Shown here: one piece after another, positions 1-28,093 of the stretch
Numbering within the stretch: the first letter of the stretch is position 1
How the letters are laid out: the number at the start of each line of letters is the position of its first letter
Assembly: GCA_958295745.1 (NCBI GenBank)
Contig: CATQHD010000007.1
Location: 1 to 35,115, forward strand
Source: an uncultured Acidimicrobiia bacterium
Lineage (GTDB): Bacteria > Actinomycetota > Acidimicrobiia > Spongiisociales > Spongiisociaceae
Direction: 5' to 3'
Length of the DNA stretch: 35,115 bases
Notes under the pieces: generated by a model
What the model was told of the DNA's origin: nothing
The model's input: only the letters and a program-made list of their open reading frames with translations
The model's database searches: none
Program-made: the position numbers and the translations under genes

Positions 1-3000
1 AACCCCACCGTAAAGTTGATCGTCGCGGCGTTGGTCGGGCCCGGCGGTTCGGAGGTGACGGTGGTGCTCTGCAGGGTGCTGTCGTATACCACGGAGTACC
101 GGGGGGCGGCCGTACTGGGGTTGCCCGCCCGGTCGCGGGCCGCGCCCGCCGGGATGTCGACCAGGACGGTACCGTTGGCCGCGGCGGGCCTGACGTCGAA
201 CGTATAGTTGATCCCGGCCTGTGCGAATCCGGTCACGGGGCCGGGTAGGGCCGTGCCGGACAGCGTGATGCCGCCGGCGCCGAACCCGGGGACCGGCTCG
301 CCGAACCCCACCTCGAATGAGATGACCGGGGAGCCGGTCCGCGTGCCGTATACGGAGGTGATGACCGGTTCGGGGGCCGTCCCGTCGTATACCACCGAGT
401 ACCTGACCGCCGCGGTGTTGCCGTCGCCCAGGTCGTTCTGCATGGAGTCCTCCGCGATATCGACATGGATGATGCCGTCGGTGTCCGGGGTTACCTCGAA
501 CGTAAAGTCCTTGCGGCCGTCCGCCCCCTCAAAGTTTTTCACGCCCCCGTCCAGCGTGGCGTTGCCGGACAGTACGATGTCAGCCGGCGAGAACCCGCGG
601 ACCGGCTCGTCGAGTGTGACGTTGAAGTTGATGGTGGTGGCGTTGGTCGGGCTGGCCTGTACCGAGGTGATGACCGGCGCGAGGTGGGTGCCGTTGTATA
701 CGATCATGAACTGCACGGCCTCCGTACTGGGGTGGCCCGCCGCATCCACGGCGGCGCCGGCGGCGATATCCACCAGGACGGTGCCGTCCGCCAGCGGCAC
801 CACGTCGAATGCGTGGGTGTCGTCCCCGTCGCCGCCCCTGAAGGCGGCCACGCTACCGCCGTTGCCGCCGTCGTCCAGCAGCTGGGCCGTCCCCGACAGG
901 GCGATGTCGCCTGCCCCGAACCCGGTGACGGGCTCCGGGCGTCCGGTGGCGGGATCGCGCCACTCCACCGTAAAGTTGATGGCGGCGGCCTTGGTCGGGC
1001 TGGCCTGCCTGGACGTGATGACCGGTTCGGGGGCGGACCGGTCTACACGGATCTCCGCGGTACCGGATGCCACGTTCGTGCTTCCGGTCCATGACCGCAC
1101 GGTACCTGCCGGCATGTGCACCTCCAGCAGATCCCCGTCGGCCGCCCCGGCCACGTCGAATGCGTACGACACGTTGAACGCCCGGACGCGGTGGACGTCC
1201 CCAGATTCGGTCGCGTATGCGGTCCCCGTGGAGCCGTCCACGGTGATGCCGGACGGTGCGCCGGGCGGGTCCCGGACGTAGGCGGAGGTAAGGTTCCCGG
1301 TGCCGTTGTATATCAGGATCCGGCCGGTGCCGGTGTCGGCCACGTATACGGCGCCCATGCCGTCGGTGGCCACGCCTGCGGGGGCGGCAAGGCCCGTGAT
1401 ATCGTACAGGGGCACAAACGCCGGATCGAACGCCCGGATCCGGCCGTTGCCGGTGTCGGCCACGTATACGTTGCCCGTTACGGCCGAGTCCACCGCGATG
1501 CCGGCGGGACCTGCAAGCGGGGAGGCGGTGCTCGTGATGTTCGTGATGTGGCTCCGTGCCCGGTCGAATACCTGTATCAGGTCGTTGCCGGTATCGGCCA
1601 CGAATATGCGGCCGGTGCCCGCATCGACTGCGACGCCGCCGGGCCGGTCGAAGCCGTTGCGGATCTCGGCGACATGATCCAGCGTGCCGTTGAACACCGA
1701 TATGCGGCCGCCGCCGTCGCGCTCTGCCACGAACAGGTGGCCGGTCCCGTTTACCGCCACGTCCTGCGGCGAGGAGAGGCCGTCCAGGGTGTCGGTGTGG
1801 TGCCGCGTGCCGTCGTACACCGCGACGCGGCCGTTGGAGCTGTCCGCCACGTATATCCGGCCCGTGTCCGTGTCGACGGCGACGCCGCGCGGCCCGTCGA
1901 ACATGCCGTCGCCCGCACCGGGGCCGGGGCCGCCGATGTCCCCGTCGGGGTGCAGCACGGGGCGCATGTTGACCGCCGCGCCCGAGGGTGAGACGGCGAT
2001 GTCCGATATCTGCAGCGTGGTGGCGTTGACCGGCTTGCTGAAGTTGAGATGGAACGGGACCGTCTGCAGGGCGGTGGGGCCCGTGACGGCGGCGGCGATC
2101 TCCGGGATCATGGGGACGCCGTTGTACGATACCGAGAACGGGGCGGCGGGGGCGCTGGGCGCCCCGATCATGTTGTGCGCCACACCCCCGGGTATGTACA
2201 CCGATATGGTGCCGTCTGCCGTCGGGTACACGGTAAAGTTGTAGGCGTCGCCGGCGCCGGCAAAGCCCGTTACGCCACCGTGGGCCGTACCGTTGGAGAG
2301 CGTGATGTCCTGTACCGTAAACCCGGCGACCGGCATGCTCCAGTCCACCAGGAATGTGACGGCGGAGGCGTTGGTCGGGCTCTCCTGTACGGAGCTGACG
2401 GCCGGGACGGGCTGCGTGCCGTCGTATGTTATCGTAAAGGGATCGGCCTGCGCGGTCGCCGTGTTGTTGTTGCGCGCGGCGTCGCGGGCCGCACCCTGGG
2501 CGATACCCACGGATATCGTGCCGTCGGCCGTCGGGGTGACGCTGAACGTATAGTTGGCCGATGCCGTCGCAGTGGCGCCGACCGTAGTTGTCGTCCCTGG
2601 TACCGCGGCAAGGTCGGTTACCCACCCGCCGGCGCCGCCGCCGCGGGGGAGGAGTGCCGTGCCGGACAGCAGGATGCCCGTCTCGTCGAAGCCGGTGACC
2701 GGTTCCGTAAAGTTCACGCGGAATACGACGGGCGAGACGCCGGTCGTGGAGGGCAGCGGGGAGGTGACGTTGACGGAGGGCGGGGTCCTGTCGATCACCA
2801 CGTGTACGGCACCGGATGCCGTGCTGGGGTTGCCCGCCGTATCCCGCACGGCGCCGGCCAGCAGGTTCACGGCCAGCGTTTCACCGTCGGCGGGGCCCGT
2901 CACGTTGAATGCGTGTACGGTGTCGTATATCCTGACGGCGTGGTTGCCCGTCTCGGCCACGTATGCGGTTCCGGTGCGGGGGTCCACGGCCACGGCGTAG

Positions 3001-6000
3001 GGCAGGTTGAGCCCGGTGAGGGTGGTCTTGTTGTGTCCGGTGCGGTCTAATATGCGGACCCTGCCGTCGTACAGATCCGCCACGTACAGGTCGCCCGTGG
3101 ATGACACGGACACGCCGGACGGGCCGCAGTTTTCGCAGGTGAGATCGGCCGTATGCCGTCCGGTGGAGGCGTCGAATACGGCGACGCGGTCGTGCAGCGT
3201 GTCGGCGACATACAGGGTGTCTGATACCGGCGAGACGGCCACGCCGGACGGGTTGCTGAACGGACCGGTGATGTTGGCCGTGCTGTGTCCGGTGGTACGG
3301 TTGAACACGTGGACCATGTCGGTGTCGATATCTGACACGTAGAGGTAGCCGTGGGTGTCGTCGACGGCCACCCCGCGCGGGGCGATCAACTGGCCCTCGC
3401 CGATGTCGGTGATGTGCCTCCTGGTGCCAGTATCGAATACGGCGATGTGGCCGCCGGCGGAGTCGGCCACGTACAGCAGGCCTGCACCCGGATCGACTGC
3501 GATGCCGTTCGGCGTCGCGAACCCGCCGGCGATGGCGTGCAGGTACCGCAGATCGCTGTCGTACACCTGGACCTGGTCAAAGGAGCCGTCGGCCACGTAG
3601 AGGCGGCCGGTGCCCGGATCGACTGCCACTCCTAACGGCAGCTTGAAGTTTTCCCTGACGCGAGGGGATTCGGGATCGCCCATCGTCGCCACCTGCCGAA
3701 TCTCGGAGAGCGGGTCGCCCACGGTTCCCGATGAAACGTTGACGTGCCGGGCCGTCAGGCCGGTGGAGGTGGAGGAGGTGCCAAGCGTCACATTCACGGG
3801 CTCGCTGAATGTCACGGTGAACGGGACGGTATCCCAGTTGACCGGCCTGTCCGGGGGGGCGGGCGTGCCAAGAACGGGGACCGGCCGGGCGCCGTCGTAT
3901 ACCATCGAGAAGCGGGCCGCCGCCGTCGGGTTGCCGGCCGGATCAATGGCGGCACCTGCCGCTATACCGACGAGGACGGTACCGTTGGTGGCAGGCTCCG
4001 CGCTGAAGGTGTATGTCTGGCCCGTACCGGCAAAGCCCGCCGGGCCCGAGGGTGCAGCCGTCCCGGAGACTGTGATGTCCCGTACGGTGAACCCGCGGAC
4101 GGGCGTCCCCCAGTCCACCGTGAAGTCCAGGGATGTGGCGTTGGTCGGACTCGGCTGCGCCGTGGATATCAGGGGGGCAGGTCCGGACCTGTCCACCGTG
4201 ATACGCGCCGTGTTCGATGCCGCGTTCGGGCTGCCGTCCGTACCGTTCACGCGGCCGGCCGGCAGGTTCACGGCAAGCACACCCTCTTCGGGATCCGTCA
4301 CGTTGAACGTGTATACGGGACCGAAGACCCGGATCAGGCCGGCGTCAAAGTCGGCCACGTATACGGTTCCCGACGCCGGGTCGACGGCCACGTCGTAGGG
4401 GGACTTGAGCATGCCCGGTGCGGTGGTGTGCAGGTGGTCCCGGGTGGAGTTGAACACGTGGATGTCGCCGCCGTGGGTGTCGGCCACGTACACGTTGCCC
4501 GTCGCGTTGTCTACGGCCACCCCCTGCGGGTACTCGAATGTGGCGGGCAGGATGCCCAGGGAGCTGCCGGAGCCGCCGTCAAGGACCCTGACGGTACCGC
4601 CGCCCCTGTCGGCCACGTATACCGTACCGGACGGGCCGTGCACCCCCACGTCGTACGGGTCTCCCAGCGAGCCGCCTGTAAGGGTGCTGACCTCCACCAG
4701 GGCGCGGTCGAACACGGTGACGCGGCCGGCGTCCGGCTCGGCCGCGTACAGGCGGCCCGCGGCACCGTCAAAGCCGACGCCGTGCGCGCCGACAAGGTCG
4801 CGCGAGGTGCCGTTCAGGCCGCCCGTCGAGTTGAACGCGAGGATGTGGTTGCGGCCCCCGTTCACCACGTATGCCGTTCCGGTGCCCGGATCGACCGCCA
4901 CGCCCTCCGGGGCGTCGAGCCCTCCCCCCGTGAGGGTGCCGGTGTGGCGCCCCGCCGGGTTGAAGATCTTGACATGGTCGAGGCTCCACTCGGTGACGTA
5001 CAGGCTGCCGGTGGAGCCGTCGATGGCCACGCCGTACGGCACGTCGACGTCGATGTCGCGTTCGTGCCGCAGCGTGAAGCGCAGGTCCTCCACGGTACCC
5101 GAGGTGACGTTGATGTCCCGGACGGACAGGGTGGAGGCGTTCACCGGCTTGTTGAATGTCATGTTGAAGGGGACCGTCTGCAGGCGCGTGGGGTCCGGTT
5201 GCGCCGTGGTGATCGTAGCGGTAAGCGGCACCAGCTCCCGCGGGGTATACTCGTACCGTACGGAGAACTGGGCGGCCGCGACACCGGGGTTGCCCGCCAG
5301 GTCGTGTGCGGCACCGGCGGCGATGTCCACGGATATCGTCCCGTTGTCCACTGGGGACACCGCGAACGTATAGTTGGCGCCGCCGTCGCCGTCCGTATCC
5401 GCGAAAAACACCACCCCGCCGTGTGCCGTCTCGTCCGAGACGGAGATGTCGCCTTCCGTGAACCCGGACACGGTCTCGCCCCACCCCACCGTAAAGACCA
5501 CCGGGGATTCGCCGGTGGTGGAGGTGGAGGTGGAGTAGGAGGAGGTGAGGTTGATGACAGGCACCGGCGCGATCCGGTCCACGGTTATCCGCACCGTGTT
5601 GGAGTCCGTGTTGGGGTTTCCGTCCGTGTCCTGCACACGGCCCTCCGGCATGTTCGCGGCAAGCGTCTCCCCGTGCTCCAGGCCGTCCACGCCGAATGCG
5701 TATGCCATATCGAACACCAGGATGCGGCCGTGGTCCCAGTCGGTCACGTATACGGTTCCGGTGGCATCGGACACGGCCACTCCGCGCGGGCCGTCGGGCA
5801 GCCCCTCCAGGGTGTGGACGCGGTCCCCCGTACCGTTGAACACGATGATGCTGTGGGTGTTCTCGTCTGCCACGTACACGTGGCCGGTGGCCCCGCTGAC
5901 GGCCACGTCCAGCGGGAGGTCGAACGGGCCGGGGAGGTCCCCGACGTAGCCCCCGGTACCGTTGAACACCTGCACGCGGTCGTTGCCGCTGCTGGCCACG

Positions 6001-15000: not shown

Positions 15001-18000
15001 CGGCCGGAGACCTCGCTGGGGTTGCCCGCCGTATCCCGCACGCCGCCGGCCGGCAGCCCCACCCCCAGGACGGCGCCGGCCGTGGCGTTTGCCACCTCGA
15101 AGGCGTATGCCGTATGGTCAAGGACGTGGCCGCGCGTACCGGAGCGGTCCACCACGTATATCCGGCCGGTGACCGGGTCGGCGGCCACCCCCCGCGGGCC
15201 GTCAAAGGTCCCGGGGAGGTCCGGCAGCGGGTGTCCCGTACCGTTGAACACGGCGATGCGGTCGTTGTTCTGGTCGGCCACGTACAGGTTGCCCTGGGAG
15301 TCGACGGCCACGCCGGTGGGGGTGTCAAACCCGCCGATGGTGGTGCCGGCGGCCCGCCCGGCGGGGTCCAGCACCCTGACGTGGTCCGATATCGAATCGG
15401 AGACGTACGTCCTGCCGGTGGCGGGATCAAAGGCCACGCCGCTCGCATACGTGAATCCCGACCGGAGGTCCCCCGTGTACGCCAGATCGCGGTCGTACAC
15501 GGCGACGCGGGCGCCGTCGGCCACGAGCACGTGGCCGGTGCCGTTGACGGCCACGTCCGCCGGGAAGCCGAATGTCGTGCCGGCCAGGTCGCCGGTGTGC
15601 ACCCCGGCAGGGTCGTACACGGCGATCCGGCGGCCGAGGGTGTCCACCACGTACAGCGTGCCGGTGGCGCCGTCGACGGCCACGCCGACGGGTTCGCGGA
15701 AGGGGCCCGGGATGGCGGTGACGTTGTGTCCGGTACGGTTGAACACCAGGACGTGGTCTCCGCCGGTGTCGGCCACGTACACGCGGCCGGTGGCGCCGTC
15801 GACGGCCACGCCCTCCGGACTGGCAAGGACGCCGCCGCCGCCGCCGAAGGCGCCGCCCGGGTACAGCGCCGCGCGCAGGTTCTGCACCGTGCCGGAGGTC
15901 ACCTCGATATCCCGTGTGTCCAGTGTGGTGGCGTTGATGCGCTCGCCGAATGTCAGGTTGAATGGTACCGTGTGCAGGCGCGTGGGGCCGGGCGGCAGGT
16001 CGGCGGTGAACTCCGGTACCGGCGGGGTGCCGTCATACACCACGGAGAACGGGCGGGCGGATGCCGCGCCGGGGTTGCCGGCCCTGTCCGCCGCCGCGCC
16101 GGCGGCGATCCCGACGGTGAGTATGCCGTCCCCGGAGGGGGTGAGCTCGAACGCGTATGTGCGGTTGCCGTCGCCGCCCGCAAAGTTCCTTACCGCCCCG
16201 TCCAGCGTGGCGTTGCCGCCGAGCACGATTCCGGCCGCGCCGAACCCGTGGACCGGCTCGCCCCAGTCCACCCCGAAGTTGACGGTGGTGGCGTTGGTCG
16301 GGCTTCCCTGTACGGCAGAGACGGCCGGGACGGGCGGCGTGGAGTCGTACACTATGGAGAACCGGGCGGCGGCCGCGCTGGTGCGGCCCTCCATGTCACG
16401 GGCCGCCCCCTCGGCTATATCGACGTGCAGCTCCCCGTCGGCCGCCGGCGCGACGTCGAACGCGTATGCGGAGCCGGCGCCCGCAAAGTTGATCACGGCC
16501 GCCGGCGCGGCCGCGCCGGACAGTACGATGTCATCCCCGCCGAATCCTGAGACGGGGGAGCGCCAGGCGACGGCAAAGCTTATGGTCGAGGCGTTGGTAA
16601 AGCCGGACCGCTCGGATGTGATTGTCGGGGCCAAAGCGGTCCTGTCGATCTCGATGCGGGCCGTGTTGGATCCGGCGTTGGGGTTGCCGGCAGCATCCCG
16701 CACGCCGCCGGCGGGCAGGGTCACGTTGAGGATCCTCCCGTCGTCGGCCCCCGTCACGTTAAAGGCGTATGCCGCATCAAAGACGTGGATGGAGTGGGTG
16801 CCGGCGTCGGCCACGTATACCCGTCCGGAGCCGTCCGTATCCACGCCGTACGGGGTGGTGAACCCGCCGGTGATGTTGGCGATGAGGTTCCCGGCGGGAT
16901 CGAACACGGCGATGCGGCCGTTGTGGCGGTCGGCCACGTATACGGTTCCAAAGTCGTCTACGGCCACGTCGGTCGGGTTGTCGAGCCGGTCGTCGATGTC
17001 GTCCAGCGGCGTCCGGTCGGGGCCGAACACGGCGATGCGGTCGTTGCCGTCGGCCACGTATACGCGGCCGGTGTAGGCGTCGACGGCGATACCGGAGGGA
17101 GTATTGAACGAGCCGGACAGGTAGGCTATCCGGCGCAGATCCGCATCGAACACGGCGACGCGGTTCTTGAAGGTGTCGGCCACGTACACGGTGCCGGTGG
17201 TGGAGTCGACTGCCACGCCGAACGGGTTGCTGAACGGGTCGTCGGTGTCGCCGCCGATGTCGCCGGTGTGATTCCCGGAGGAGTCGAACACCCGTATGAT
17301 GTTGGCGAACCAGGATGCCACGTATGTCGTGCCGGTGGAGGCGTCTATGGCCACGGTGGACGGGCGGTTGAACGGGTTCGCAAGGCCGCCCGTGATCTCG
17401 CCGGTGTACGTCCCGTCGGGATCAAAGATTTTTACGCGGCTGTTGGCCGAGTCGGCCACGTATATCGCGCCGGTGACGGGGTGTACCGTCACGCCGTACG
17501 GGCTGTCGAACTGGTCGTCCGCCGTACCCAGGCCGCCGAATGTGTGGTTGTGGTGCCACACGGGTACCAGATCCCGGACGGTTCCCGATGTGGCGTCGAT
17601 GTCCGAGATATCGAGGGCCGTGGCGTTGACGGCCTCGCTGAATGTCAGGTTGAAGGGGACGGCCGGCAGGTTCGTGGGGCCAGCCCGCGCTGGGACGACC
17701 TCCGGGACGGGGGGCGTGCCGTCGTAGACTATCGAGAAGGGGACAGAGGCGTTGCCGGCGTTGCCGACCCTGTCCCGGGTGACGTTTGCGGGTATGCCCA
17801 CCCGTATGATCCCGTCCGATGCCGGTACGATCTCAAAGGCGTACACGGCGGAGCCGTCGCCGCCCGCAAAGGCGGCTATGCCCCCGTGCGCGGCGGTCCC
17901 CGATACCGTGACGTTGTCCGCGGTAAATCCGCGGACCGGCTCGCCCCAGTCCACGCGGAGGTTGACGGTGGTGGCGTTGGTCGGGTTCGGCTGTACGGAC

Positions 18001-21000
18001 GTGATGACCGGTACCGGGCGGGTGCCGTCGTATGTCCGCGAGAACCGGGCCGCCTCCCCGCTGGGGTTGCCCGCCACATCCACGGCCGCGCCGGCGGCGA
18101 TGTCCACGTGTATGGTGCCGTCCGATACCGGCGAGATCTCGAAGGTATAGACGGCGCCGCTGCCCGCGAACTCGGCCACCCCCCCGTGGGTGGCATTTCC
18201 CGATACGGTGATGTTCCCCGCCCCGAACCCCGTGACTGGCCTGCCGAAATCGACCCGGAAGCCGATGGTGGCAGAGTTGGTCGGATCCGGCTGTGCGGAG
18301 GACACGCGCGGTATCACGGAGGACCGGTCTATGTCGATGCGCACCGTGTTGGATTCCGCATTCGTGTTTGCGGCCTGATCCCGCACGCGGCCCTCCGGCA
18401 GGTATACCGCAAGCGTCCGCCCGTCGGCCGCATCCGCCACGTCAAAGGTATATCCAATATCAAAGGCATGGACGCGGTTGTTGTTCTCTTCGATCACGTA
18501 CAGGGTGCCCGAAAAACCGTCTAATGCCACGCCGTACGGGCCGGCGAACCGTTCGGAGGTGACGGCGATTTGGCCCCCTGCGGAGTCGAACACCCGGACG
18601 CGGCCGTTCTGCCGGTCCGACACGTATATGTTGCCGGTGGAGTCGTCGACTGCCACGCCGTACCCCTGCCGGACCCGGCTGGTGATCTCAAAGAGCGGGG
18701 TCCTCTCGGAGTCGTATACCCGGATGAGGTGGGCGTTCGTGTCGGCCACGTATATGTCGCCGGTGGTCTCGTCGACCGTCACGTCGAGCGGGTGGACAAG
18801 CCCGTCGATCGTGTCGATGTGGTGTCCCGTGGAGTTGAATACGTAGACGTGGTGGTTGCCAAAGTCGGCAACGTATACGGTTCCGGTGGCGCCGTCGACC
18901 GCCACGCCCCTGGGCGAGTTGAACGGGCCGGTGATGTTGGTTACGAATTGCAGGCCGGAGTCGAATACGGCGACGCGTCTGTTGCCCGAGTCGGCCACGT
19001 ATATGTCGCCGGTGGTGCCGTCGACCGTCACGTCGTGCGGGGAGTTGAACCGGCCGGTGATGTCGTAGGCGTACTGCCTCGTGGCAGGGTCGAACACCTG
19101 GATGCGGTTGTTGCCCGTGTCGGCCACGTATATGTTGCCCGCAGTGTCCGTTGACACGCCGGACGGATTTTTAAACTGGCCGTCGTTTGTGCCTTCGTCG
19201 CCGAAGGTTCCGTTATGCAACAGGGCCGGGCGCAGGTTTTGTACCATCCCCGAGGTGGCGTTGATGTCCGACGTGTCAAGGGATGTCGCATTTATGGTCC
19301 CGTCGAACGTCATGTTGAAGGACAGGGCGGGCAGGCGGGTATACCCGGACTGTACGGTGGAGATTGTCGGGGCCGGCCGCGTGCCGTCATGGACGATCAG
19401 GAACTGTGGCGCGGCGTTGCCGGTGTTGCCCGCCCCGTCCCGGGCCGCGCCGGCCGCGATGTCCACCCGTATGATCCCGTCAGATACGGGGGACACGTCG
19501 AATGTGTAAGCGGCGGCGTCGCCCGCAAAGTTGGTCACGCCGCCGTGGGAGGCCGTCCCGGACACCGTGATGTCGTCCCTTTCAAACTCGAGGACCGGCT
19601 CGCCCCAGCTTACCTTGAAGTTGATGGTGGTGGCGTTGGTCCGGGCCGGCTGTACGGATGTGATGGTGGGCGTGGGGGGCGTGCCGTCGTATGTGATCGA
19701 GAACTGTGGCGCGGCGTTGCCGGTGTTGCCCGCCCCGTCCCGGGCCGCGCCGGCCGCGATGTCCACCCGTATGATCCCGTTAGATACTGGGGACACGTCG
19801 AATGTGTGGTTGGCGCCGCCGTCGATGCTTGCAAGGTTGGCTATGCCGCCGTGGGAGGCGTTGCCCGATATCACGATGTCGTCCTTTTCAAACCCGAGGA
19901 CCGGCTCGCCCCAGCTTACCTTGAAGTTGATGGTGGTGGCGTTGGTCCGGGCCGGCTGTACGGATGTGATGGCGGGCGTGGGGGGCGTGCCGTCGTACAG
20001 GATTGAAAAGCGGTCCGCCATCTCGTTGCGGTTGCCGGCCGTATCCTGCACCACCCCCGCTGCGATGTCGACCAGTATGGTCCCGTTCGACGTGGGTGAC
20101 ACGTCAAAGGTGTAGGCCGAGCCGTTGCCCGCAAAGCCGGTTACGCCGCCGTGGGAGGCGTTGCCCGATATCACGATGTCGTCCTTTTCAAACCCGGTGA
20201 CGTTGCCGCCAAAGTTCACCCGGAGGTTGATGGTGGCGGAGTTGGTCGGACTGGACTGTACCGCGGTGATGACGGTGGCAAGATGCATGGTGTCATAGAC
20301 GATCGAGAAGCGGTCGGCCTTGGTGTTAAAGTTGCCCGCCCCGTCCCGTGCCGCACCGGCCGCGATGTCGGCCCATATGATCCCCTCCGATACCGGGGAT
20401 ATGTCAAAGGTGTAGGCGGCGGCGGCGCCATCAAGGTGGGTTATGCCGCCGTGGGAGGCGTTGCCCGATATCACGATGTCATCCTTTTCAAACCCGGTGA
20501 CCGGATCGTCCCAGTCCACCCGGAGGTTGATGGTGTCAGAGTTGGTCGGGTCGGCCTGCAAGGAGGTGATTGTCGGGACGGGGGATCCGTCGTAGGCCAT
20601 CGAGAACCGGGGCGCCGCCGCACTGGGGTTGCCGGCCGGATCATGCGCCATCCCCGCCGCGATGTCGACAAGGACGGTCCCGTCCGATACAGGGGACACG
20701 TCGAAGGTGTAGGCGGAGCCGTTGCCCGCAAAGCCGGTTACGCCGCCGTGGGAGGCCGTCCCGGATACGGTGATGTCGGCCGCCCCGAACCCGGTGACCG
20801 GCTCGTCCCAGTCCACCCGGAGGTTGACGGTGGCAGGGTATGTCGGGCCCGCCTGTACGGAGGTGATGGCAGGCACGGGGGCCCTGCGGTCTATGACGAC
20901 GTCGATCCTGTTGGAGTCCTCGTTTGCGTTTCCCGCCGTGTCGTTCACGCCGTCGGCCGGTACCGTTACGGCGAGCGTGCGGCCGTCGGCCGGATCCTCC

Positions 21001-23498
21001 ACGACAAACGACGACACGGTGTTGAATACCAGGACGCGATCGTTGCCGGTGTCGGCCACGTACAGGTGTCCGGAGGAGATGTCCACATCCACGCCCCGGG
21101 GGGCGCTGAATCCGGTGATGTTGGTGATGCTGTGCAGCGTGGAGTTGAATACGGCGATGCGGTCGTTGCCGGTGTCGGCCACGTATATGCGGCCGGTGGT
21201 TTCGTCGACGGCCACGCCGTGCGGGGCGTTAAGCTGGGGGATGTAGCCGGCAAGGGTCCTGTCGGTCCTGTAAACTGCGACGCTGTTGTTGCCGGTTTGG
21301 GCCACGTATACCATACCCAGGACGGGGTCGACGGCCACGTCACGCGGGGCGCCGTGCACAGTAATGCCGCCGGCGAAGTTCAATCCACTACCCTGGTGAT
21401 AGATCCATACACGGCTCCTGGTGGGGTCTGCCGTGTACAGATGTCCGCCTTGTCCGGTTTGGGGTGAAGGAACAAAGTCCATCCCGGTGTAGGCGGTTGT
21501 AGGATTACTAGCTTGCCAGTGCCAACCGAGGTTGGTGACGAATCTTGCCAGCGAGGGTGAAGATATATAGTATGCGCTTTTGGATCGGGAGGAGTCGATC
21601 GCCACGCCGACCGGATATCCGGGAAGGATGTCGTTGAGTTTATTCCCGGCAAAATCGAATATCGAGACGCTGCGGCCGTTGGGCGCGTATATGCGGTCTT
21701 CGGAGGGATCCGCCTCCACATCGGTCGGGTGGTCTATGGCGATGCTCCTGTGGAGTTCGAACGCGGTGGTCAGGTTCCGGACCGTGCCGGAGGTGACGGC
21801 GATGTCCGACATGTCGAGGGTGGTGTGGTTTATGTGCTTGCTGAAGGTCAGGTTGAACGGTACGGTCTGCAGGTTGGTGGGACCTGGCGGTACCGAGGTG
21901 ACCGTCGGGGCCAGGACCGTGCCGTTGTAGGCTATCGAGAACCGGGACGCCGCGTTACCGGGGTTGCCGGCCAGATCCCGCGCCGCTCCGGCGGCGATGT
22001 CGACATGCAGGGTCCCGTTCGATACCGGGGACGCCTCGAACGTATAGTTGGCGGGGCCGCCTACGGGACTGGTTGCGCCGCCGTGGGTGGCCGTACCCGA
22101 TACCGTGATGTTGGTCGTACCCGATACCGTGATGTCCTCCGCAGTAAACCCGGTGACGGGCTCGCCCCAGTCCACAAGGAAACGGATCGTCGGGGCGCTG
22201 GTCGGGTCGGGCCGCGTGGTGGTGATGACGGGGACCGGGGCGGTCCTGTCTATGTCGATGCGTGCCGGATATGAGGCATCGTTTGCGTTTCCGGCCAGGT
22301 CCTGCACGCGGCCGTCCGGCAGGCTTACCGCAAGCGTCCGCCCGTTGGCCGGATCCGCCACGTCAAAGGCGTATGCCGCGGCCGCCGGATCAAAGATCGA
22401 TACATGGTTGTTGTCACGGCTGACCGCGTACACGGTGCCCGCGGTACCGTCGACGGCCACGCCGGTCGGAAGTTTGATCGAGTCCGTGATGTTGGCGATG
22501 CTGTGGTGTGTGGAGTTGAACACGGCGATGCGGTGGTTGTAGGGATCGGCCACGTATATGTCGCCGGCGGCACCGTCGACGGCCACGGCAAACGGATAGG
22601 CAAACGAGTCCGTGATGTTGGCGATCCAGTTCCGCGTGCCGTCGAAGACGGCGATGCGGTTGTTGCCCGAGTCGGCCACGTATATGCGGTTACCGGAGGG
22701 GTCCACCGTCACGCTGGACGGGTTGCTGAACCCGTCGGTGATGTCGGCGGTGTGGCGTCCCGTACCGTCGAATATCGCGATTCGGTTGTTGCCGGTGTCG
22801 GCCACGTATACGGTTCCGGAGGAGGAGTTGATTGCGACGCCCGTGGGATGGTTGAACGGGGTGTTGGGGTCGGTGATGTCGGCGGTGTGGCGTCCCGTAT
22901 AATCGAATACCGCGACGCGGTGGTTGCCGGTGTCGGCCACGTATACGGTTCCGGTGACGGTGTTTACCGCCACGCCCTGCGGAAGGTTGAGGGGGTCGGC
23001 CGTATCGGCGAGGTCGGTGATGTGCCTCCCCGTACCGTCGAATACGGCGACGCGGTGGTTGCCGGTGTCGGCCACGTAGATGCGGCCCGCCGTACCGTCG
23101 ACGGTCACGCCGTGCGGACGTTCCAGTAGGGCGGCGTCCGCCGAGCCCGGGCCGCCAAAGTCTCCGTTGTGGTACGGCGCCGCGCGCAGGTTCTGCACGG
23201 TGCCCGAGCTGACGGCGATGTCCGATGCGTCAAGGGTCGGGGGGCTTATGGCCCTGTTGAAGGTGATGTTGAATGGTACGGCCTGCAGTCCGGTGGGTGA
23301 TGTCGTATTGGTCCGGATCTCCGCCGTCAGCGGATGGCCGTCCGCATATGCGGGGGCCGGGGCGGGGAGAAGGGCGGCGCAACAGCAACCCGCAAAAAGC
23401 AGGACCGCAAGCGGGATCAGAAGGGCCGCAAGCGGCGGCGGCCGGCGGCGGCGGCCGGCGGCGGCGGCCGGCGATTTTGGAATCTTTGTCGGCGGCAG
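1..23498 (-). CDS. Giant secreted NHL-propeller / Ig-like repeat protein (3' end outside window)
   Basis: One frame (codons starting at positions that are 2 modulo 3) stays open from about 23,500 to the left edge, about 7,832 codons, with the C-terminus missing. I checked the frame at positions 5, 3590, 6923, 8420, 10328, 11972, 14813, 16931, 19121 and 22934. The N-terminus is a signal peptide. The rest repeats a fixed plan 14 times: an entry Ig-like module (T-x-LDxSDIxxTSGTVxNL), six NHL repeats (PxGVAVDxxTGxVYVADTGN), an exit Ig-like module (DGRTLAVxLPAGxVRD), then zero to five Ig-like modules of the EPVTGF/DGTVxVDIAAGAA type. NGT, NST and NAT sequons are frequent, which fits an N-glycosylated archaeal surface protein. 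NHL repeats are known to form six-bladed propellers that bind proteins or ligands. A role in adhesion, matrix or host contact is inference. The start is uncertain; CTG at 23498 is used because it follows an SD-like AAGGAGG and precedes the signal peptide. Both strands look open across the region because of high GC, but only this frame encodes recognisable domains. Confidence 0.93.
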   Translation of the reverse strand, partial: MPPTKIPKSPAAAAGRRRRPPPLAALLIPLAVLLFAGCCCAALLPAPAPAYADGHPLTAEIRTNTTSPTGLQAVPFNITFNRAISPPTLDASDIAVSSGTVQNLRAAPYHNGDFGGPGSADAALLERPHGVTVDGTAGRIYVADTGNHRVAVFDGTGRHITDLADTADPLNLPQGVAVNTVTGTVYVADTGNHRVAVFDYTGRHTADITDPNTPFNHPTGVAINSSSGTVYVADTGNNRIAIFDGTGRHTADITDGFSNPSSVTVDPSGNRIYVADSGNNRIAVFDGTRNWIANITDSFAYPFAVAVDGAAGDIYVADPYNHRIAVFNSTHHSIANITDSIKLPTGVAVDGTAGTVYAVSRDNNHVSIFDPAAAAYAFDVADPANGRTLAVSLPDGRVQDLAGNANDASYPARIDIDRTAPVPVITTTRPDPTSAPTIRFLVDWGEPVTGFTAEDITVSGTTNITVSGTATHGGATSPVGGPANYTFEASPVSNGTLHVDIAAGAARDLAGNPGNAASRFSIAYNGTVLAPTVTSVPPGPTNLQTVPFNLTFSKHINHTTLDMSDIAVTSGTVRNLTTAFELHRSIAIDHPTDVEADPSEDRIYAPNGRSVSIFDFAGNKLNDILPGYPVGVAIDSSRSKSAYYISSPSLARFVTNLGWHWQASNPTTAYTGMDFVPSPQTGQGGHLYTADPTRSRVWIYHQGSGLNFAGGITVHGAPRDVAVDPVLGMVYVAQTGNNSVAVYRTDRTLAGYIPQLNAPHGVAVDETTGRIYVADTGNDRIAVFNSTLHSITNITGFSAPRGVDVDISSGHLYVADTGNDRVLVFNTVSSFVVEDPADGRTLAVTVPADGVNDTAGNANEDSNRIDVVIDRRAPVPAITSVQAGPTYPATVNLRVDWDEPVTGFGAADITVSGTASHGGVTGFAGNGSAYTFDVSPVSDGTVLVDIAAGMAHDPAGNPSAAAPRFSMAYDGSPVPTITSLQADPTNSDTINLRVDWDDPVTGFEKDDIVISGNASHGGITHLDGAAAAYTFDISPVSEGIIWADIAAGAARDGAGNFNTKADRFSIVYDTMHLATVITAVQSSPTNSATINLRVNFGGNVTGFEKDDIVISGNASHGGVTGFAGNGSAYTFDVSPTSNGTILVDIAAGVVQDTAGNRNEMADRFSILYDGTPPTPAITSVQPARTNATTINFKVSWGEPVLGFEKDDIVISGNASHGGIANLASIDGGANHTFDVSPVSNGIIRVDIAAGAARDGAGNTGNAAPQFSITYDGTPPTPTITSVQPARTNATTINFKVSWGEPVLEFERDDITVSGTASHGGVTNFAGDAAAYTFDVSPVSDGIIRVDIAAGAARDGAGNTGNAAPQFLIVHDGTRPAPTISTVQSGYTRLPALSFNMTFDGTINATSLDTSDINATSGMVQNLRPALLHNGTFGDEGTNDGQFKNPSGVSTDTAGNIYVADTGNNRIQVFDPATRQYAYDITGRFNSPHDVTVDGTTGDIYVADSGNRRVAVFDSGLQFVTNITGPFNSPRGVAVDGATGTVYVADFGNHHVYVFNSTGHHIDTIDGLVHPLDVTVDETTGDIYVADTNAHLIRVYDSERTPLFEITSRVRQGYGVAVDDSTGNIYVSDRQNGRVRVFDSAGGQIAVTSERFAGPYGVALDGFSGTLYVIEENNNRVHAFDIGYTFDVADAADGRTLAVYLPEGRVRDQAANTNAESNTVRIDIDRSSVIPRVSSAQPDPTNSATIGFRVDFGRPVTGFGAGNITVSGNATHGGVAEFAGSGAVYTFEISPVSDGTIHVDIAAGAAVDVAGNPSGEAARFSRTYDGTRPVPVITSVQPNPTNATTVNLRVDWGEPVRGFTADNVTVSGTAAHGGIAAFAGGDGSAVYAFEIVPASDGIIRVGIPANVTRDRVGNAGNASVPFSIVYDGTPPVPEVVPARAGPTNLPAVPFNLTFSEAVNATALDISDIDATSGTVRDLVPVWHHNHTFGGLGTADDQFDSPYGVTVHPVTGAIYVADSANSRVKIFDPDGTYTGEITGGLANPFNRPSTVAIDASTGTTYVASWFANIIRVFDSSGNHTGDIGGDTDDPFSNPFGVAVDSTTGTVYVADTFKNRVAVFDADLRRIAYLSGSFNTPSGIAVDAYTGRVYVADGNDRIAVFGPDRTPLDDIDDRLDNPTDVAVDDFGTVYVADRHNGRIAVFDPAGNLIANITGGFTTPYGVDTDGSGRVYVADAGTHSIHVFDAAYAFNVTGADDGRILNVTLPAGGVRDAAGNPNAGSNTARIEIDRTALAPTITSERSGFTNASTISFAVAWRSPVSGFGGDDIVLSGAAAPAAVINFAGAGSAYAFDVAPAADGELHVDIAEGAARDMEGRTSAAAARFSIVYDSTPPVPAVSAVQGSPTNATTVNFGVDWGEPVHGFGAAGIVLGGNATLDGAVRNFAGGDGNRTYAFELTPSGDGILTVGIAAGAAADRAGNPGAASARPFSVVYDGTPPVPEFTADLPPGPTRLHTVPFNLTFGERINATTLDTRDIEVTSGTVQNLRAALYPGGAFGGGGGVLASPEGVAVDGATGRVYVADTGGDHVLVFNRTGHNVTAIPGPFREPVGVAVDGATGTLYVVDTLGRRIAVYDPAGVHTGDLAGTTFGFPADVAVNGTGHVLVADGARVAVYDRDLAYTGDLRSGFTYASGVAFDPATGRTYVSDSISDHVRVLDPAGRAAGTTIGGFDTPTGVAVDSQGNLYVADQNNDRIAVFNGTGHPLPDLPGTFDGPRGVAADPVTGRIYVVDRSGTRGHVLDHTAYAFEVANATAGAVLGVGLPAGGVRDTAGNPSEVSGRTGITVDRFPPAVSSAAVTGPLNVTVWYTEPVNATSAAYGRLVVDGILRTLDAGRPPAGNGTAVHVITFTGEPAPRTAGGTLTMDLTAIADTAGNAAGTRTAVQQELVPGQAPVVTAAAVTGPRQITLSYTVPVNATGTAYGVPVIDGTARAYAADPLGGNGTAVHTLALDGGSAVGTTDATGTLPVDSTAVTDVYDITMGTSTSLRIPLSDGQAPAVDSAVITAPNRFTVRYTEPVYAYGASAYGELSVDGLPRSYASPDPLAGNGTAVHLVEFTGAPAPRAAGGTVLLNLTLLEDAAGNAVGAEPAFPQALSGGGQMGVLLATETPLHTALDTIPFTMGFGRSINATTLDASDINATSGTVRNLERVFSANGSLGAAQLADYPYGVAVNGTGHVYVADRSNHRIAVFGPDGAYTGQITGLRYPRDVSIHGVTGDVYVADTGSGLVRIFNGTGHPLGELAGRFNGPEGLAVDGAAGRVYVADTANLRVRVFDTATRQEIADLPGTFVFPIGVAADPLSGTVYVVDAQANMIRVFNSTLDHIHDIAGMFALQSGVAVDPSSGTLYAAETDNGVIAVFNGTWDRVAQIDPPGRPIRITVDPSAGTVYVVNDVDRPVRVYDPGYAFEVAGVEADEVLAVNIPQGAVLDPAGNENAASGTVRINIDRTPPVPVVGSAHPDPTNATAIGFTVHFDMGVRGFGADDIILGGTAALDGGVKNFARVGADNGNGNGNGAAANYTFEVSPVADGTVLVGVPAGAARDLAGNPSAASARFSVVYDGTPPHPVAAHTVDEEAPAAVNNRYFVTPLTREVRSHGGVWYTNLESVPMGIVYRGGAVNASTVEISDVNATLGTVSDPRWPLRYNSTFGSGPGAPGAAGGQLNHPYDVALDGTAGYAYVADTENDRIAVLEVATGRHVANITDGLDTPYGVAVDPATGTVYVADTENDRVRVFNYTGMRVSWSSATGVGGGSPPTPPPADPGSAWPRIADIGADRLDTPYGVAVDGATGTVYVADTGNDRVAVFDGAGRYTSEIADGFDFPAGVEVDGAAGRIYVADTGNDRVAVFNRTGDFITNVTDGRIDTATGVAIDPATGTVYVADFVNERIAVFNGTGHNTANIVRAFNTQAYGEVVPRFDHSFSTPAGVGVDPVTGALYVADTFDHEVHRFDVSYAFDVGGLDHGDRFTVGMPAGAVRDAAGNPNEGSDMAAVVIDRMPPVPVINSTQPDPTNSTVLDFTVAWGENVTGFGPEDVRVSGARLSASDIANFTGAGANYTFEVRPAADGTVRIEIPAGSAHDLAGNAGAGAVPFEIVYDTGPPVPVITAVQQSPTNSTVINLRVEWGENVTGFGAGDVRVSGATVYGGGAVNLGGLDGYANYTFEVLPADDGKIRIEIPAGSAHDLADNPGAAGVPLEIVYDSMGPVPEVTAVQSSPTYADTVNIRVDWREPVEGFDTDDIIVSGTAPHGGVTNFAGAGASYTFDISPTGDGSLLVDIRPGAVPDPAGNPSVPGDRLVMVYTGSSPIPRIAATVGDPTRLQTVPFTVTFSEHVDASTFDTSDITVSSGTVRNLEPAVLHTDLGNGTAGAGTGRLDRPSGVAVDTASGTVYVADTGNDRVTVFNTARHHTANITAGFDNPAGVAVDGAGRLYVADTGRDRVAVLDGTTGRPAGIGEITGWLDRPAGVAVHIRSDTVYVADPFNDRIAVFDGATGRNTANITEGLSGPSGVAVHDPSGTVYVADTFNDRVAVYDSALEPLQDLPGTFKRPVGVAVDDRSGAVYVADTAAVAGAAGTGRIAVYDTTGRHTHNITTGGFANPAGVAVDSLSGTVYVAERGGHRVLVLDPAYGFDVADPVNGRVLQVELPTGRVFDPDGNANTGADTSITVDRTGPIPTIQAVPSRSDVPKMVFRVDWNEPVTGFNTSSIILSGPPTVGGGGPAAFSGAGDTYTFEILPSADGTVLVEIPAGAARDAAGNPGVEAAPFSAIYGTVPLTAALSSPDAPGPVNLHTVRFGMGFNKGVNASTMNASDIGVTSGTVHDLKPVLRYRETFGGPGNGTDRFDSPRGLAVNASSGITYVADFGNKRVAVLDFDRSHIADLLANFTTPEYVALDPSTGRIYVTDFGDPRVTVFDSRTGDRLDDLPGPFNGPTGVAVDPEAGRIYVAEVRTGTVLVFNSDGTRAGSLPRTLSFPLGVAVDPATGTVYVSESTDQVAMFDRQGRYTGAISGAFDLPIGVAADPLSGTVHVAGSQDDRVSVFNGTGDLVHTTGHLPAPYGVATDPPLGTVYVTDRIGHTVTVFDISYEFAVSGAADGEALAVSLPAGTVLDGDGANNTDSNTVYVDIDRTGPAPPSITPEDAALLLDPTSSPVIGFRVDWAENVTGFAPDGIRLSNDTGHGGVANLTAVPGTGTAAHTFEVRPHRDGPVRVLIGPGAATDIAGNNNNNASSPLFVMYDATPPVPVIAPGLPGPTNLQTVPFRMIFGEAVNGSTLDTSDIAVSSGTVQNLRLIPRYSGTFDGGGPGQFDQPYGMAVNGTGHVFVADEGNNRVRVFDPALRHLTDIEDGFDLPTDVAVHGATGTVYVADSGGDRIAVFNHTLHHTADIDDSLEFPTSVAVNGSGHVFVADTGAGLIRVFDTAGRNVTGIGGLGSPYGVAVSPSGGIYVTDTYDNSLRVFGPAGDPAAALPRTFDNPVGVAVDGSSGNVYVADTENDRIAVYDPALNHIANITGSFDTVQGIAVDPSTGALYAADWGADNIRVFEAAYTFEVDGPVAGQNLTAHVPAGAVLDRAGNPSAGSAPAGIFIDRDGPLPVLSTVQPDPTNATTVVVLAEFDEPVDASTLGAADLNVTAGTVLQDPDYRLVRDGALFTVSAPSGVAVDGTTGRVYVTEWADKRVAVFDGGTGGTGLRIDNITGVSVPRDVAVNGTGGTAYVVTGNNFRVAAFDSAGAQLGTTPALGDPRGVAVDGPTGNVYVTESQHNRIAVFDHTLENRLLTITGGGISAPRGVAADSARDRIYVASSGNDRVQVFNGTGGYVGDLPGPFDLPLDVAVSGATGHVYVADENTHSIIVFNGTGDRVHTLEGLPDGPRGVAVSDATGTVYVTDWDHGRILVFDMAYAFGVDGLEHGETLAANMPEGRVQDTDGNPNTDSNTVRITVDRIAPVPVINLTSSYSTSTSTTGESPVVFTVGWGETVSGFTEGDISVSDETAHGGVVFFADTDGDGGANYTFAVSPVDNGTISVDIAAGAAHDLAGNPGVAAAQFSVRYEYTPRELVPLTATITTAQPDPTRLQTVPFNMTFNKPVNASTLSVRDINVTSGTVEDLRFTLRHERDIDVDVPYGVAIDGSTGSLYVTEWSLDHVKIFNPAGRHTGTLTGGGLDAPEGVAVDPGTGTAYVVNGGRNHILAFNSTGGLNGTSRDLVGAHGVGFDGAAGRLYAAEPDAGRVTVFDRALVEVSTLTGGSLGDPYDVGVHGPSGTVYVADRGGGTVRVLDGGSGSSLGILPATFEYPQGVAVDNATGNVYVADTHGGDIHVFNSTRDHLHTTAPGMLKSPYDVAVDPASGTVYVADFDAGLIRVFGPVYTFNVTDPEEGVLAVNLPAGRVNGTDGSPNAASNTARITVDRSGPAPLISTAQPSPTNATSLDFTVDWGTPVRGFTVRDITVSGTAAPSGPAGFAGTGQTYTFSAEPATNGTVLVGIAAGAAIDPAGNPTAAARFSMVYDGARPVPVLGTPAPPDRPVNWDTVPFTVTFSEPVNVTLGTSSTSTGLTARHVNVSSGTVGDPLSEIRQVATMGDPESPRVRENFKLPLGVAVDPGTGRLYVADGSFDQVQVYDSDLRYLHAIAGGFATPNGIAVDPGAGLLYVADSAGGHIAVFDTGTRRHITDIGEGQLIAPRGVAVDDTHGYLYVSDIDTDMVHVFNRTTGHSTANITGPFSNPSGVAVSPVSDTLYVADTLHDRVAVFDASTGRHTADLTCENCGPSGVSVSSTGDLYVADLYDGRVRILDRTGHNKTTLTGLNLPYAVAVDPRTGTAYVAETGNHAVRIYDTVHAFNVTGPADGETLAVNLLAGAVRDTAGNPSTASGAVHVVIDRTPPSVNVTSPLPSTTGVSPVVFRVNFTEPVTGFDETGILLSGTALLPRGGGAGGWVTDLAAVPGTTTTVGATATASANYTFSVTPTADGTISVGIAQGAARDAARNNNTATAQADPFTITYDGTQPVPAVSSVQESPTNASAVTFLVDWSMPVAGFTVQDITLSNGTAHGGVTGFAGAGDAYNFTVYPTADGTISVYIPGGVAHNMIGAPSAPAAPFSVSYNGVPMIPEIAAAVTGPTALQTVPFHLNFSKPVNATTLQISDIAVSPSGAAVNMRPVLHPDGDIGGPGPGAGDGMFDGPRGVAVDTDTGRIYVADSSNGRVAVYDGTRHHTDTLDGLSSPQDVAVNGTGHLFVAERDGGGRISVFNGTLDHVAEIRNGFDRPGGVAVDAGTGRIFVADTGNDLIQVFDRARSHITNITSTASPLAGPAGIAVDSAVTGNVYVADTGNGRIRAFDPAFVPLYDITGLAAPAGVATDGMGAVYVADTGTGRILIYNGTGNLTSAYVRDPPGAPSGITVDGSTGTAYATESGDVHRVRAFNVSYAFDVAGAADGDLLEVHMPAGTVRSWTGSTNVASGTAEIRVDRSAPEPVITSRQASPTKAAAINFTVEWRDPATGRPEPVTGFGAGDIALSGTAQLLDDGGNGGSVAAFRGGDGDDTHAFDVVPLADGTVLVDIAAGAAVDAAGHPSTEAVQFMIVYNGTHLAPVITSVQASPTNATTINFNVTLDEPVRGFSPADIVLSGNATLDGGVKNFEGADGRKDFTFEVTPDTDGIIHVDIAEDSMQNDLGDGNTAAVRYSVVYDGTAPEPVITSVYGTRTGSPVISFEVGFGEPVPGFGAGGITLSGTALPGPVTGFAQAGINYTFDVRPAAANGTVLVDIPAGAARDRAGNPSTAAPRYSVVYDSTLQSTTVTSEPPGPTNAATINFTVG
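13990..14960 (-). repeat. Three Ig-like modules of a distinct type within the giant protein
   Basis: Between propellers 5 and 6 the Big_12-like modules are replaced by three tandem modules of about 95 residues. They share the plan VTGP..VTVxYTEPVNAT..YG.L.VDG, then GNGTAVH, then GGTLxxDLTxIxDTAGN. This resembles the SwmB-type and related bacterial adhesin repeats rather than the surrounding EPVTGF modules. It is the only place in the window where this type occurs. Confidence 0.6.
19390..20880 (-). repeat. Tandem cluster of five Big_12-like Ig modules with a recent duplication
   Basis: Five Ig-like modules of about 300 bp stand in a row between propellers 2 and 3. The two at the low-coordinate end are nearly identical over long stretches at an offset of about 300 bp: the segment starting at 19401 (GAACTGTGGCGCGGCGTTGC) recurs at 19701, and shared sequence continues for most of a module. 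The five modules share 'GFEKDDIVISGNASHGG'-type loops, which points to local expansion by unequal recombination. Confidence 0.8.
23345..23498 (-). other. Signal peptide region of the giant protein
   Basis: Counted from CTG at 23498, residues 1-23 form a basic N-region with two Lys and a run of four Arg. It is followed by a hydrophobic core reading LAALLIPLAVLLFAG and three consecutive Cys at residues 38-40. A likely signal peptidase I site is AYA before DG near residue 52. The first Cys after LLFAG also resembles a lipobox, so lipid anchoring cannot be excluded. The basic region is encoded by a 12-bp repeat of GCC/GGC triplets. Confidence 0.75.
23428..23471. repeat. GCC/GGC microsatellite in the signal-peptide N-region
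   Basis: About three and a half copies of a 12-bp unit built from GGC triplets encode the Ala/Gly/Arg/Pro-rich start of the giant protein. Loss or gain of whole units would keep the frame, while a single-base slip here could join the signal peptide to the ATG at 23559, which lies in another frame. Confidence 0.7.
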
Positions 23499-23509
23499 GG
23501 ACTACACAC

Positions 23510-23516
23510 CCTCCTT
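23510..23516 (-). promoter_or_regulatory. SD-like sequence before the giant gene
   Basis: On the minus strand AAGGAGG at 23516-23510 lies about 11 nt before CTG at 23498 and directly before an out-of-frame GTG at 23509. It is the best ribosome-binding sequence near the signal peptide and the main reason for preferring the CTG start. The same stretch contains the in-frame TAG (23504-23502). Confidence 0.45.
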
Positions 23517-23624
23517 GGATGTCAAAGGGGCGCCTGCTGGCAGGCCGCCGGGCATGCATGAGAATCCGGCCTCCGTCCCGTCAGACATGCGCAGCTTCAA
23601 CCTCTGCCTTTCCTCCAACCACCA

Positions 23625-23636
23625 CCCCCCCCCCCC
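23625..23636. repeat. C12/G12 homopolymer upstream of the giant gene
   Basis: Twelve C on the plus strand (twelve G on the coding strand of the giant gene) lie about 130 bp before its proposed start, between the TATA-like box and the SD-like site. On the minus strand an ATG at 23724 opens a frame that reaches this tract; a one- or two-base change would join it to the frame of the giant gene, which then meets TAG at 23502-23504. Confidence 0.85.
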
Positions 23637-23751
23637 ATCCGGCCACGCCTCCCCGGTCCGGCAAAGGGCATGATGTAGATGATGGCACACTCCCCGCACA
23701 CATACCACCGCTCATCGCGATCATTGTTATTGTGGCGGTGTACGCCGGAGG

Positions 23752-23761
23752 GTATAAAAAT
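23752..23761 (-). promoter_or_regulatory. TATA-like box, divergent; possible promoter of the giant gene
   Basis: The minus strand reads TTTTTATACC here. It is the only good TATA-like element within about 300 bp upstream of the giant gene. A transcript would start near 23730 and leave a leader of about 230 nt before the CTG start. The same bases read TATAAAAA on the plus strand, so the element could act in both directions. Confidence 0.4.
23753..23760 (+). promoter_or_regulatory. TATA box, plus direction
   Basis: GGGTATAAAAATTACG is a strong archaeal TATA match, with expected transcription start near 23780-23785. That start coincides with the first arm of the inverted repeat at 23778, so the transcript would begin within a potential stem. 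Confidence 0.5.
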
Positions 23762-23777
23762 TACGCCTGTGGTGGCG

Positions 23778-23868
23778 GTACGAGTTCACCTACCACATCA
23801 ATACAGGCACAAAAACACCTTGACTGATTCGAATTCACGCCTGATAGAGGAGGTAGGTGAACTCGTAC
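23778..23868 (+). repeat. 17-bp perfect inverted repeat, possible structured RNA or operator
   Basis: GTACGAGTTCACCTACC (23778-23794) is the exact reverse complement of 23852-23868, with 57 bp between the arms. It lies at the expected start of a transcript from the TATA box at 23753. It could be the stem of a small RNA, a regulator site, or the ends of a decayed element; nothing here decides among these. Confidence 0.6.
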
Positions 23869-23933
23869 TCGGCGGCGGGCCGCAAGCGATCAGGCACCTG
23901 TCCGCATTCGGCGGGATCAGGTGCGAACCATGA
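23820..23933 (+). CDS. Possible small protein, 37 aa (weak)
   Basis: A TTG at 23820, about 65 nt after the plus-strand TATA box, opens a short frame ending in TGA at 23931. It contains an amphipathic stretch (RLIEEVGELVLGG) that looks more protein-like than its surroundings. The second arm of the inverted repeat lies inside the frame. No family is recognised and chance is a serious alternative. Confidence 0.2.
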   Translation: MTDSNSRLIEEVGELVLGGGPQAIRHLSAFGGIRCEP

Positions 23934-26115: not shown

Positions 26116-26268
26116 GGTTGTGCGGTAACCCTGCCTAAAAACCACCCAGATCGGCCTCTGGACGTGACGCGGGTGGCTGGCCGGCGGCTGTTCCCGCCTG
26201 GGATCCCGTAGGCACGCGTTTTTCGCGACTGCAAACCAACCACAAGACAAATTATTTTCACATAGGAT

Positions 26269-26276: not shown

Positions 26277-26295
26277 GACAGGCCGAGATCCGCCG

Positions 26296-28052: not shown

Positions 28053-28093
28053 GTCCATGTCCCAGATCGACAGAACCGCGATCAGAAACACGG

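Follow-up and report, generated by a model that had tools for sequence, protein, structure and literature searches.

NHL propellers nested in Ig-like domains of giant predicted surface proteins from a probable thaumarchaeon

Background

NHL propellers are represented by structures of Thin, Brat, TRIM2/3/71 and the sensor domain of PknD, and the rings described here share with them the fold and the blade motif (Z 39.4 to 6xg7). Judging by their entry titles, those proteins have a single NHL domain, whereas the protein encoded in the window (the whole stretch of 35,115 nucleotides that was analysed, which is the entire contig C8 of assembly G000) has at least 14 rings per chain, each predicted to lie inside an Ig domain. 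In Lin41 a filamin domain stands ahead of the NHL ring, in tandem. The Lin41 structures (6fpt, 6fq3) thus resemble the window protein in joining an Ig-like domain to an NHL ring, but in the window protein the ring appears to interrupt the Ig domain. Propeller and Ig-like folds are also combined in 1L0Q, by its title an archaeal surface protein; its families are YVTN and PKD, in contrast to NHL and Big_12 in the window protein, which is nested and far longer.

The accessible text of a report on archaeal huge proteins gives their SGL and Lactonase domains as exclusive to Thaumarchaeota (PMC11573180). Those thaumarchaeal proteins are similar to the present ones in being huge, archaeal and composed of propeller families (SGL, Lactonase), but nesting or NHL rings receive no mention in that text, and neither 'NHL' nor 'propeller' occurs in its main text. 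Giant1-5 of Apilactobacillus, as far as the accessible text describes them (PMC12863079), are likewise extracellular proteins of 3,000-8,000 aa from a symbiont, which is bacterial. A 7,622-aa frame that we found in genome G056 shares with the window protein its giant size, many propeller units and a hydrophobic leader, and is matched by Pfam Lactonase, SGL and WD40-like profiles, in agreement with the exclusivity stated in PMC11573180; unlike the window protein, it gives only two blade-HMM matches above 5 bits, and the matches listed for the 5,000 aa that were scanned include neither Big_12 nor NHL. Databases therefore already contain giant multi-propeller proteins from Thaumarchaeota. No description of giants with NHL rings nested in Ig domains was found in the literature searched (most subscription papers lie outside it), and as far as searched the nested design is new.

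Results and discussion

The giant open reading frame

We identified on the minus strand a giant open frame (3-23498) of at least 7,832 codons, cut on its left side at the contig end (window base 1). An earlier note on this DNA, made from the sequence alone, had described an unbroken minus-strand frame of at least 7,800 residues, and this description holds: there are 0 stops in this frame across window 1-23501 (-), including the interval 1-23,400 in which the note had proposed looking for a stop or frameshift. The remaining five frames contain 26 to 328 stops over the same stretch, where about 160 are predicted from base composition, and the GC content of the giant frame is 0.864 at codon position 3 versus 0.526 at position two. 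The frame begins with a candidate leader:

23343..23498, minus strand: N-terminal leader, residues 1-52, comprising an arginine-rich stretch, a hydrophobic stretch and AYA (AYADG), judged by eye

A TAG (23502-23504) directly precedes the frame, and the leader begins at CTG 23498. No in-frame ATG, GTG or TTG is present upstream of the hydrophobic leader, the first standard start in the frame being GTG 23198, within the protein; the gene therefore starts either at CTG or at a codon altered by a sequence or consensus error. In a sister frame of 17,166 aa (see below), a methionine stands ahead of a similar leader. The signal peptide proposed previously is thus retained in part, as a secretion-like leader recognized by eye, while a standard start codon is missing upstream of it. 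Since the gene runs off the left contig end, the C-terminus of the window protein is missing. Contig C7 might be the continuation, which would give 12,655 aa; among the matches listed in the self-comparison of the assembly there was none between C7 and C8, and we do not claim that length.

NHL rings

The two halves of the protein match Pfam NHL (PF01436) with E-values of 1.2e-186 and 1e-196 (596.6 and 628.5 bits, cut-off 20) and Pfam Big_12 (PF19078) with 2e-51 and 2.2e-46 (172.9 and 156.7 bits, cut-off 27), so that both families named earlier are confirmed far above their cut-offs. The Pfam families listed for the two halves at E 0.01, 10 for one and 16 for the other, include no PKD family. 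Blades were counted, at more than 10 bits, with an HMM built and iterated on these giant proteins, which delineates 14 blocks in the window protein (rings 2 and 3 are also covered by structure models):

22338..23120, minus strand: NHL ring 1, residues 127-387, six blades
20979..21731, minus strand: NHL ring 2, residues 590-840, degenerate, 4 of 6 blades above 10 bits
18417..19169, minus strand: NHL ring 3, residues 1444-1694
16734..17504, minus strand: NHL ring 4, residues 1999-2255
15072..15821, minus strand: NHL ring 5, residues 2560-2809
13104..13853, minus strand: NHL ring 6, residues 3216-3465
11469..12365, minus strand: NHL ring 7, residues 3712-4010, with a loop insertion
9459..10247, minus strand: NHL ring 8, residues 4418-4680
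8100..8849, minus strand: NHL ring 9, residues 4884-5133
6723..7466, minus strand: NHL ring 10, residues 5345-5592
5670..6434, minus strand: NHL ring 11, residues 5689-5943
4281..5042, minus strand: NHL ring 12, residues 6153-6406
2880..3641, minus strand: NHL ring 13, residues 6620-6873
1131..1895, minus strand: NHL ring 14, residues 7202-7456

Exactly six blades are found in 13 of these blocks. The earlier count of 14 blocks of exactly six therefore stands as to the number of blocks and has to be relaxed for block 2 (590-840), which is degenerate. Across five frames of the assembly, 61 of 62 blocks have exactly six blades, a count made without the partial ring of C7, which is truncated at the end of its contig. 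The rings of the window protein are well diverged, with a mean identity of 0.40 (range 0.29 to 0.51, 91 ring pairs).

Structure prediction with AlphaFold2 covered two of the 14 rings, ring 3 and the degenerate ring 2, and both are modelled as closed six-bladed rings, as the earlier note had expected of the blocks. The model of module 3 (18003-19391: ring 3, its host Ig and the next Ig) has a pLDDT of 92.4 and a pTM of 0.82 and contains 24 ring strands, one of them contributed from the N-terminal side. Its ring superimposes on NHL crystal structures with Z 39.4 and an rmsd of 1.5 A over 255 residues (6xg7), and on the designed Pizza6 proteins with Z about 35. The model of ring 2 has a pLDDT of 83.5 overall, falling below 50 at model residues 133-136 and 138-161, and matches NHL structures with Z 32.3 and an rmsd of 1.7 A over 240. 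Even the most degenerate ring is thus modelled as an NHL-type ring, at lower confidence locally.

Rings inserted in Ig domains

According to the earlier note, the rings were set between Ig-like modules. We find them instead inside Ig domains. The sequence upstream of the rings consists of variants of 'LDxSDIxxTSGTVxNLR' and the sequence downstream of variants of 'YxFDV...LAVxLPAGxVxDxAGN...IDR', and these flanks resemble the first and second halves of plain Ig domains nearby. On an Ig model built from 23 seeds chosen by the analyst's own pattern, the flanks before and after 62 rings (ring 2 of C8 included) occupy, by their medians, positions 1-30 and 46-84. When joined, they cover the Ig model in one match for 57 of the 62 rings and score higher than the better half for 59; with the flank order swapped, 0 of the 62 cover it. 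A shifted join, in which the downstream flank was moved by 25 residues, gave a median of 37.7 bits versus 30.1 for the true join, and was not used as a control because it probably reaches into the next plain Ig.

The model of module 3 agrees with this arrangement. Its plain Ig has strands 402-411 and 414-421, separated by a short turn, and the equivalent strands of the host Ig, 49-63 and 306-319, enclose the entire ring, a correspondence drawn from the order of strands in one model. Most solved NHL domains among the matches listed align to about 57-313 and some reach further, so that each of these two host strands seems to belong in part to the closing blade and in part to the region beyond the ring. 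Because the flanks jointly fit the Ig model and the strands of module 3 follow this order, we conclude from sequence and model that the rings are insertions within Big_12-type Ig domains, at one beta-turn. With this nesting, the picture of rings on stalks in series gives way to that of a stalk with side-mounted rings, where the side mounting in three dimensions is a likely consequence.

Between the rings, plain Ig domains may form runs, of which one is given here:

19389..20846, minus strand: five plain Big_12-like Ig domains in a run, residues 885-1370, between rings 2 and 3 (Ig model)

The window part of the protein contains 23 full plain Ig matches to the Ig model, which together with the 14 ring hosts give roughly 37 Ig domains. 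At 3-4 nm per domain, this part of the stalk might extend over about 100-150 nm.

Sister genes and source organism

The earlier note had called a fibre of this kind unusual in size and regularity. The protein is not unique: the same assembly holds two bigger frames, both on contig C2, and genome G055 (see below) has at least 25 long NHL frames. These frames, at 12363-63860 (17,166 aa, 25 rings of six blades) and 95244-128555 (11,104 aa, 14 rings of six blades), are closed at both ends, their lengths being those of stop-to-stop frames and not of measured proteins. Both have a leader, and both end with CFI_box_CTERM (NF041770; 67.4 bits in the 17,166-aa frame and 46.9 in the 11,104-aa frame, cut-off 40), after which come a hydrophobic stretch and then basic residues. 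Contig ends truncate two further frames, one on C7 with 7 full rings and one on C4 with 2, and C3, C5, C6 and C9 are near-identical versions of portions of these giant genes. The giant frame of C4 (3-11816, -) encodes a subtilase domain (Peptidase_S8, E 1.6e-31) near its N-terminus, along with its 2 NHL rings and many Big_12 domains.

The taxonomy of the assembly should not be applied to the window. Contig C1 (3.0 Mb) has genes that look bacterial by eye, and its own sucC is only 39% identical to that of C2. Relatives of the C2 sucC are archaeal in 80 of the 80 loci kept (from 308), at 66-74% identity; 78 of them are titled as Thaumarchaeota groups and the other 2 as archaeon only. The assembly is a chimera in which a bacterial-looking chromosome, C1, has been binned with thaumarchaeal contigs that do not belong to it. 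The flank of C8 shares 1.66 kb with C2 at 91% identity, and the same giant gene family is present on both contigs. Based on the relatives of the C2 sucC, the link between C8 and C2 and the gene family, we assigned C2-C9 to a Nitrosopumilaceae/Cenarchaeum-type archaeon as their probable source, C4 and C7 being placed by the gene family alone. The archaeal origin presumed in the earlier note thus gains support from the thaumarchaeal sucC and the 1.66 kb link. To judge from its relatives, the archaeon is probably akin to sponge symbionts and may have a sponge host. A search for archaeal AmoA gave no match and was uninformative, as the controls were likewise without a match.

Other genes of the window

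The remainder of the contig encodes an IS5-type transposase frame (26296-27789, +), inside which 5.6 perfect copies of a 33-bp unit (27069-27252) specify an 11-residue repeat. It is followed by an anti-phage dCTP deaminase-like gene (28124-29596, +; NF041025 at 389 bits, just below the cut-off of 400; dCTPase by PADLOC) and by a second, partial deaminase copy (31214-31798, +; 551 bp at 92%), with 20 perfect copies of a 24-bp unit (29892-30377) between both copies. A related dCTP deaminase-like copy is found on C2 near 131006-132659. A DUF3800 protein is encoded at 32079-32816 (+). Rfam models had no match at gathering scores in 23000-35115.

Selection and duplication

The giant genes are under purifying selection. 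Four allelic contig comparisons gave dN/dS values of 0.31, 0.29, 0.30 and 0.31, three of them for the same C2 gene and hence not independent, with 21-25 nonsynonymous and 25-30 synonymous changes per comparison once the codons that differ at several positions (12, 8, 4 and 4) had been excluded. The selection on the rings that the earlier note had deduced from their strict blade number is in line with these values of about 0.3 and with the six blades of 61 of 62 blocks.

The same data bear on whether the frame or its repeats arose through misassembly or belong to a decayed gene. The chimeric bin, the redundant small contigs, the non-standard start and the one degenerate ring would all fit such an artefact. 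However, separate contigs that are 99.4-99.6% identical keep the frames open (between C8 and C9 there is one gap opening, with a length difference of 3 bases), dN/dS is about 0.3, and a second genome, G055, has the same module design. As an explanation of the frame, the artefact is largely refuted, and we give it very little credence overall.

Nearest relatives of individual blades indicate how the rings multiplied. In 61 rings (excluding the degenerate ring 2 of C8 and the incomplete one of C7), 171 of 366 blades find their closest counterpart in another ring at the same index, where chance would give 61; blade 6 stands out most, with the same index in 52 of 61. Since nearest blades share their index far more often than by chance, the rings were evidently duplicated as whole units. 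In a tree of 153 rings, from which blocks of G055 that are not six-bladed (in genes cut by the fetched stretches, or degenerate) were left out, the source genome and G055 separate with 8 changes, compared to a mean of 47.9 and a minimum of 40 in shuffles. Most copying therefore took place after the split of the two lineages, or the rings were homogenised later. Within the source organism, gene labels change 24 times on the tree versus 32 in shuffles (minimum 26), so rings of one gene cluster weakly. The plain Ig domains vary in number as well: a plain-Ig unit of 621 bp (207 aa) is repeated 9 times in C2 versus 15 times in C3, and a 615-bp unit 5 versus 4 times.

Distribution in related genomes

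A profile of the module matched, at E 0.001, 209 of the 250 genomes in the family of genome G040, with up to six candidates scored per genome; among the matches listed, it is mostly the ring alone that is matched, in frames of mostly a few hundred to 2,000 aa. The full module is found, among the matches listed, only in G055 (3.2 Mb; best 1.2e-170), and G176 has one module of host Ig plus ring. We counted in G055 at least 25 distinct NHL frames with lengths between 1,302 and 7,648 aa, including seven longer than 5,000 (stop-to-stop frames, from 150 of 708 candidates scored), and the blocks in the frames fetched are mostly six-bladed. On its contig 1 (3.17 Mb), many of the fetched NHL frames share the C-terminus PFSYTEMAVGL...FVANC, for which the one frame tested had no NCBIfam match. 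A scan of IMG/VR returned 4 loci at 26-29% identity, and a scan of named genomes with the N-terminal fragment returned no relative.

This distribution is relevant to a role in evasion, in which long glycosylated fibres with eukaryote-like domains would act as a shield or by mimicry and prevent digestion by host amoebocytes. The accessible text of PMC7848895 counts NHL and Ig among the eukaryotic-like domains that some Thaumarchaeota of sponges possess, and suggests a part for such domains in recognition by the host. It also describes several free-living Thaumarchaeota as having NHL repeats, and in the family examined here 209 of the 250 genomes match the profile, mostly over the ring only among the matches listed, so that NHL proteins are common. 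On this evidence we consider a shield unlikely.

Predicted function

Several features point to the cell surface: the leader, the C-terminal anchor of the sister proteins, the acidic composition, the few cysteines and the excess of sequons. The many NxT sequons reported earlier are indeed in excess, with 161 NxS/T in the window protein versus 59 +/- 7 in shuffles, an excess that derives partly from repeated motifs. Surface display of the window protein is thus likely, glycosylation is plausible, and the rings may serve in binding. We regard it as probable, on balance, that the giant protein is a multivalent, surface-anchored, glycosylated fibre for adhesion or recognition.

On this reading, the window protein would be one member of a giant secreted surface family of a Cenarchaeum-like thaumarchaeon. 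A complete protein would consist of the N-terminal leader, ring-bearing and plain Ig domains, the CFI-box-CTERM and the hydrophobic and basic tail, the last two of which would keep it on the cell. Its stalk would be a chain of Big_12-type Ig domains, in which at intervals one Ig bears a six-bladed NHL propeller in a beta-turn; two long strands are predicted to pass from that Ig into the closing blade and could hold the ring rigidly beside the stalk. Each ring would offer one binding face, many rings would provide avidity, and the plain-Ig repeats would set the reach.

Conservation within the rings constrains what they may do. Among polar residues, those with at least 80% conservation at a given blade index are D, N, R and Y, which belong to the NHL motif. 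Apart from the DR pair of the Ig, the columns that are invariant throughout the module hold G, P, Y, V and F. Comparison of the sequences of 61 rings revealed no blade-specific set of acidic residues or histidines common to them other than the motif D, and this argues against a catalytic site shared by the rings. An array of enzymes, with the rings as lactonase, gluconolactonase or lyase-like catalytic propellers in tandem, had been suggested by cross-matches to the Pfam SGL, Arylesterase and Lactonase profiles and by the presence of gluconolactonase, lactonase and PAL among the structural matches of ring 2. The NHL match is far stronger than these, no acidic or histidine set at a given blade is shared by the 61 rings, and the invariant columns are those just listed, so that catalytic rings appear highly improbable.

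The same 61 rings show no single hypervariable face: by loop entropy, with the analyst's column grouping, variability is about the same in the da loops as in the cd loops. That no dedicated binding face emerges is a point against adhesion or recognition and fits a structural coat or matrix, S-layer-like or extracellular, in which the rings would be rigid spacers or lateral contacts and not ligand binders. Ig-like stalks and a high sequon density also suit a coat, and 1L0Q, a solved archaeal surface-layer fragment with a YVTN propeller plus PKD, is among the Foldseek matches. On the other hand, the rings are diverged within the protein (mean identity 0.40), the long NHL frames of G055, at least 25 in number, are very unequal in length, and an ordered lattice would presumably prefer uniform subunits. 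We rank a coat second, as a possible reading that is less likely than the adhesion or recognition fibre.

The adhesion or recognition fibre could moreover be modular, with whole rings serving as exchangeable heads for binding that are copied and moved from gene to gene, and with plain-Ig arrays whose length differs between strains and tunes the reach. We put this forward tentatively, as something that may well prove wrong; if true, the rings in one gene would recognize different host or matrix partners.

The very large archaeal proteins described here reveal a design rule, the predicted insertion of a propeller into a beta-turn of an Ig domain, which recurs dozens of times. Natural six-bladed rings on apparently rigid side mounts may be useful for protein design, and the modules are well enough defined to be expressed and tested for binding. 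If the rings bind components of the sponge or the matrix, this would shed light on the way in which archaeal symbionts cling to their host or are recognized by it.
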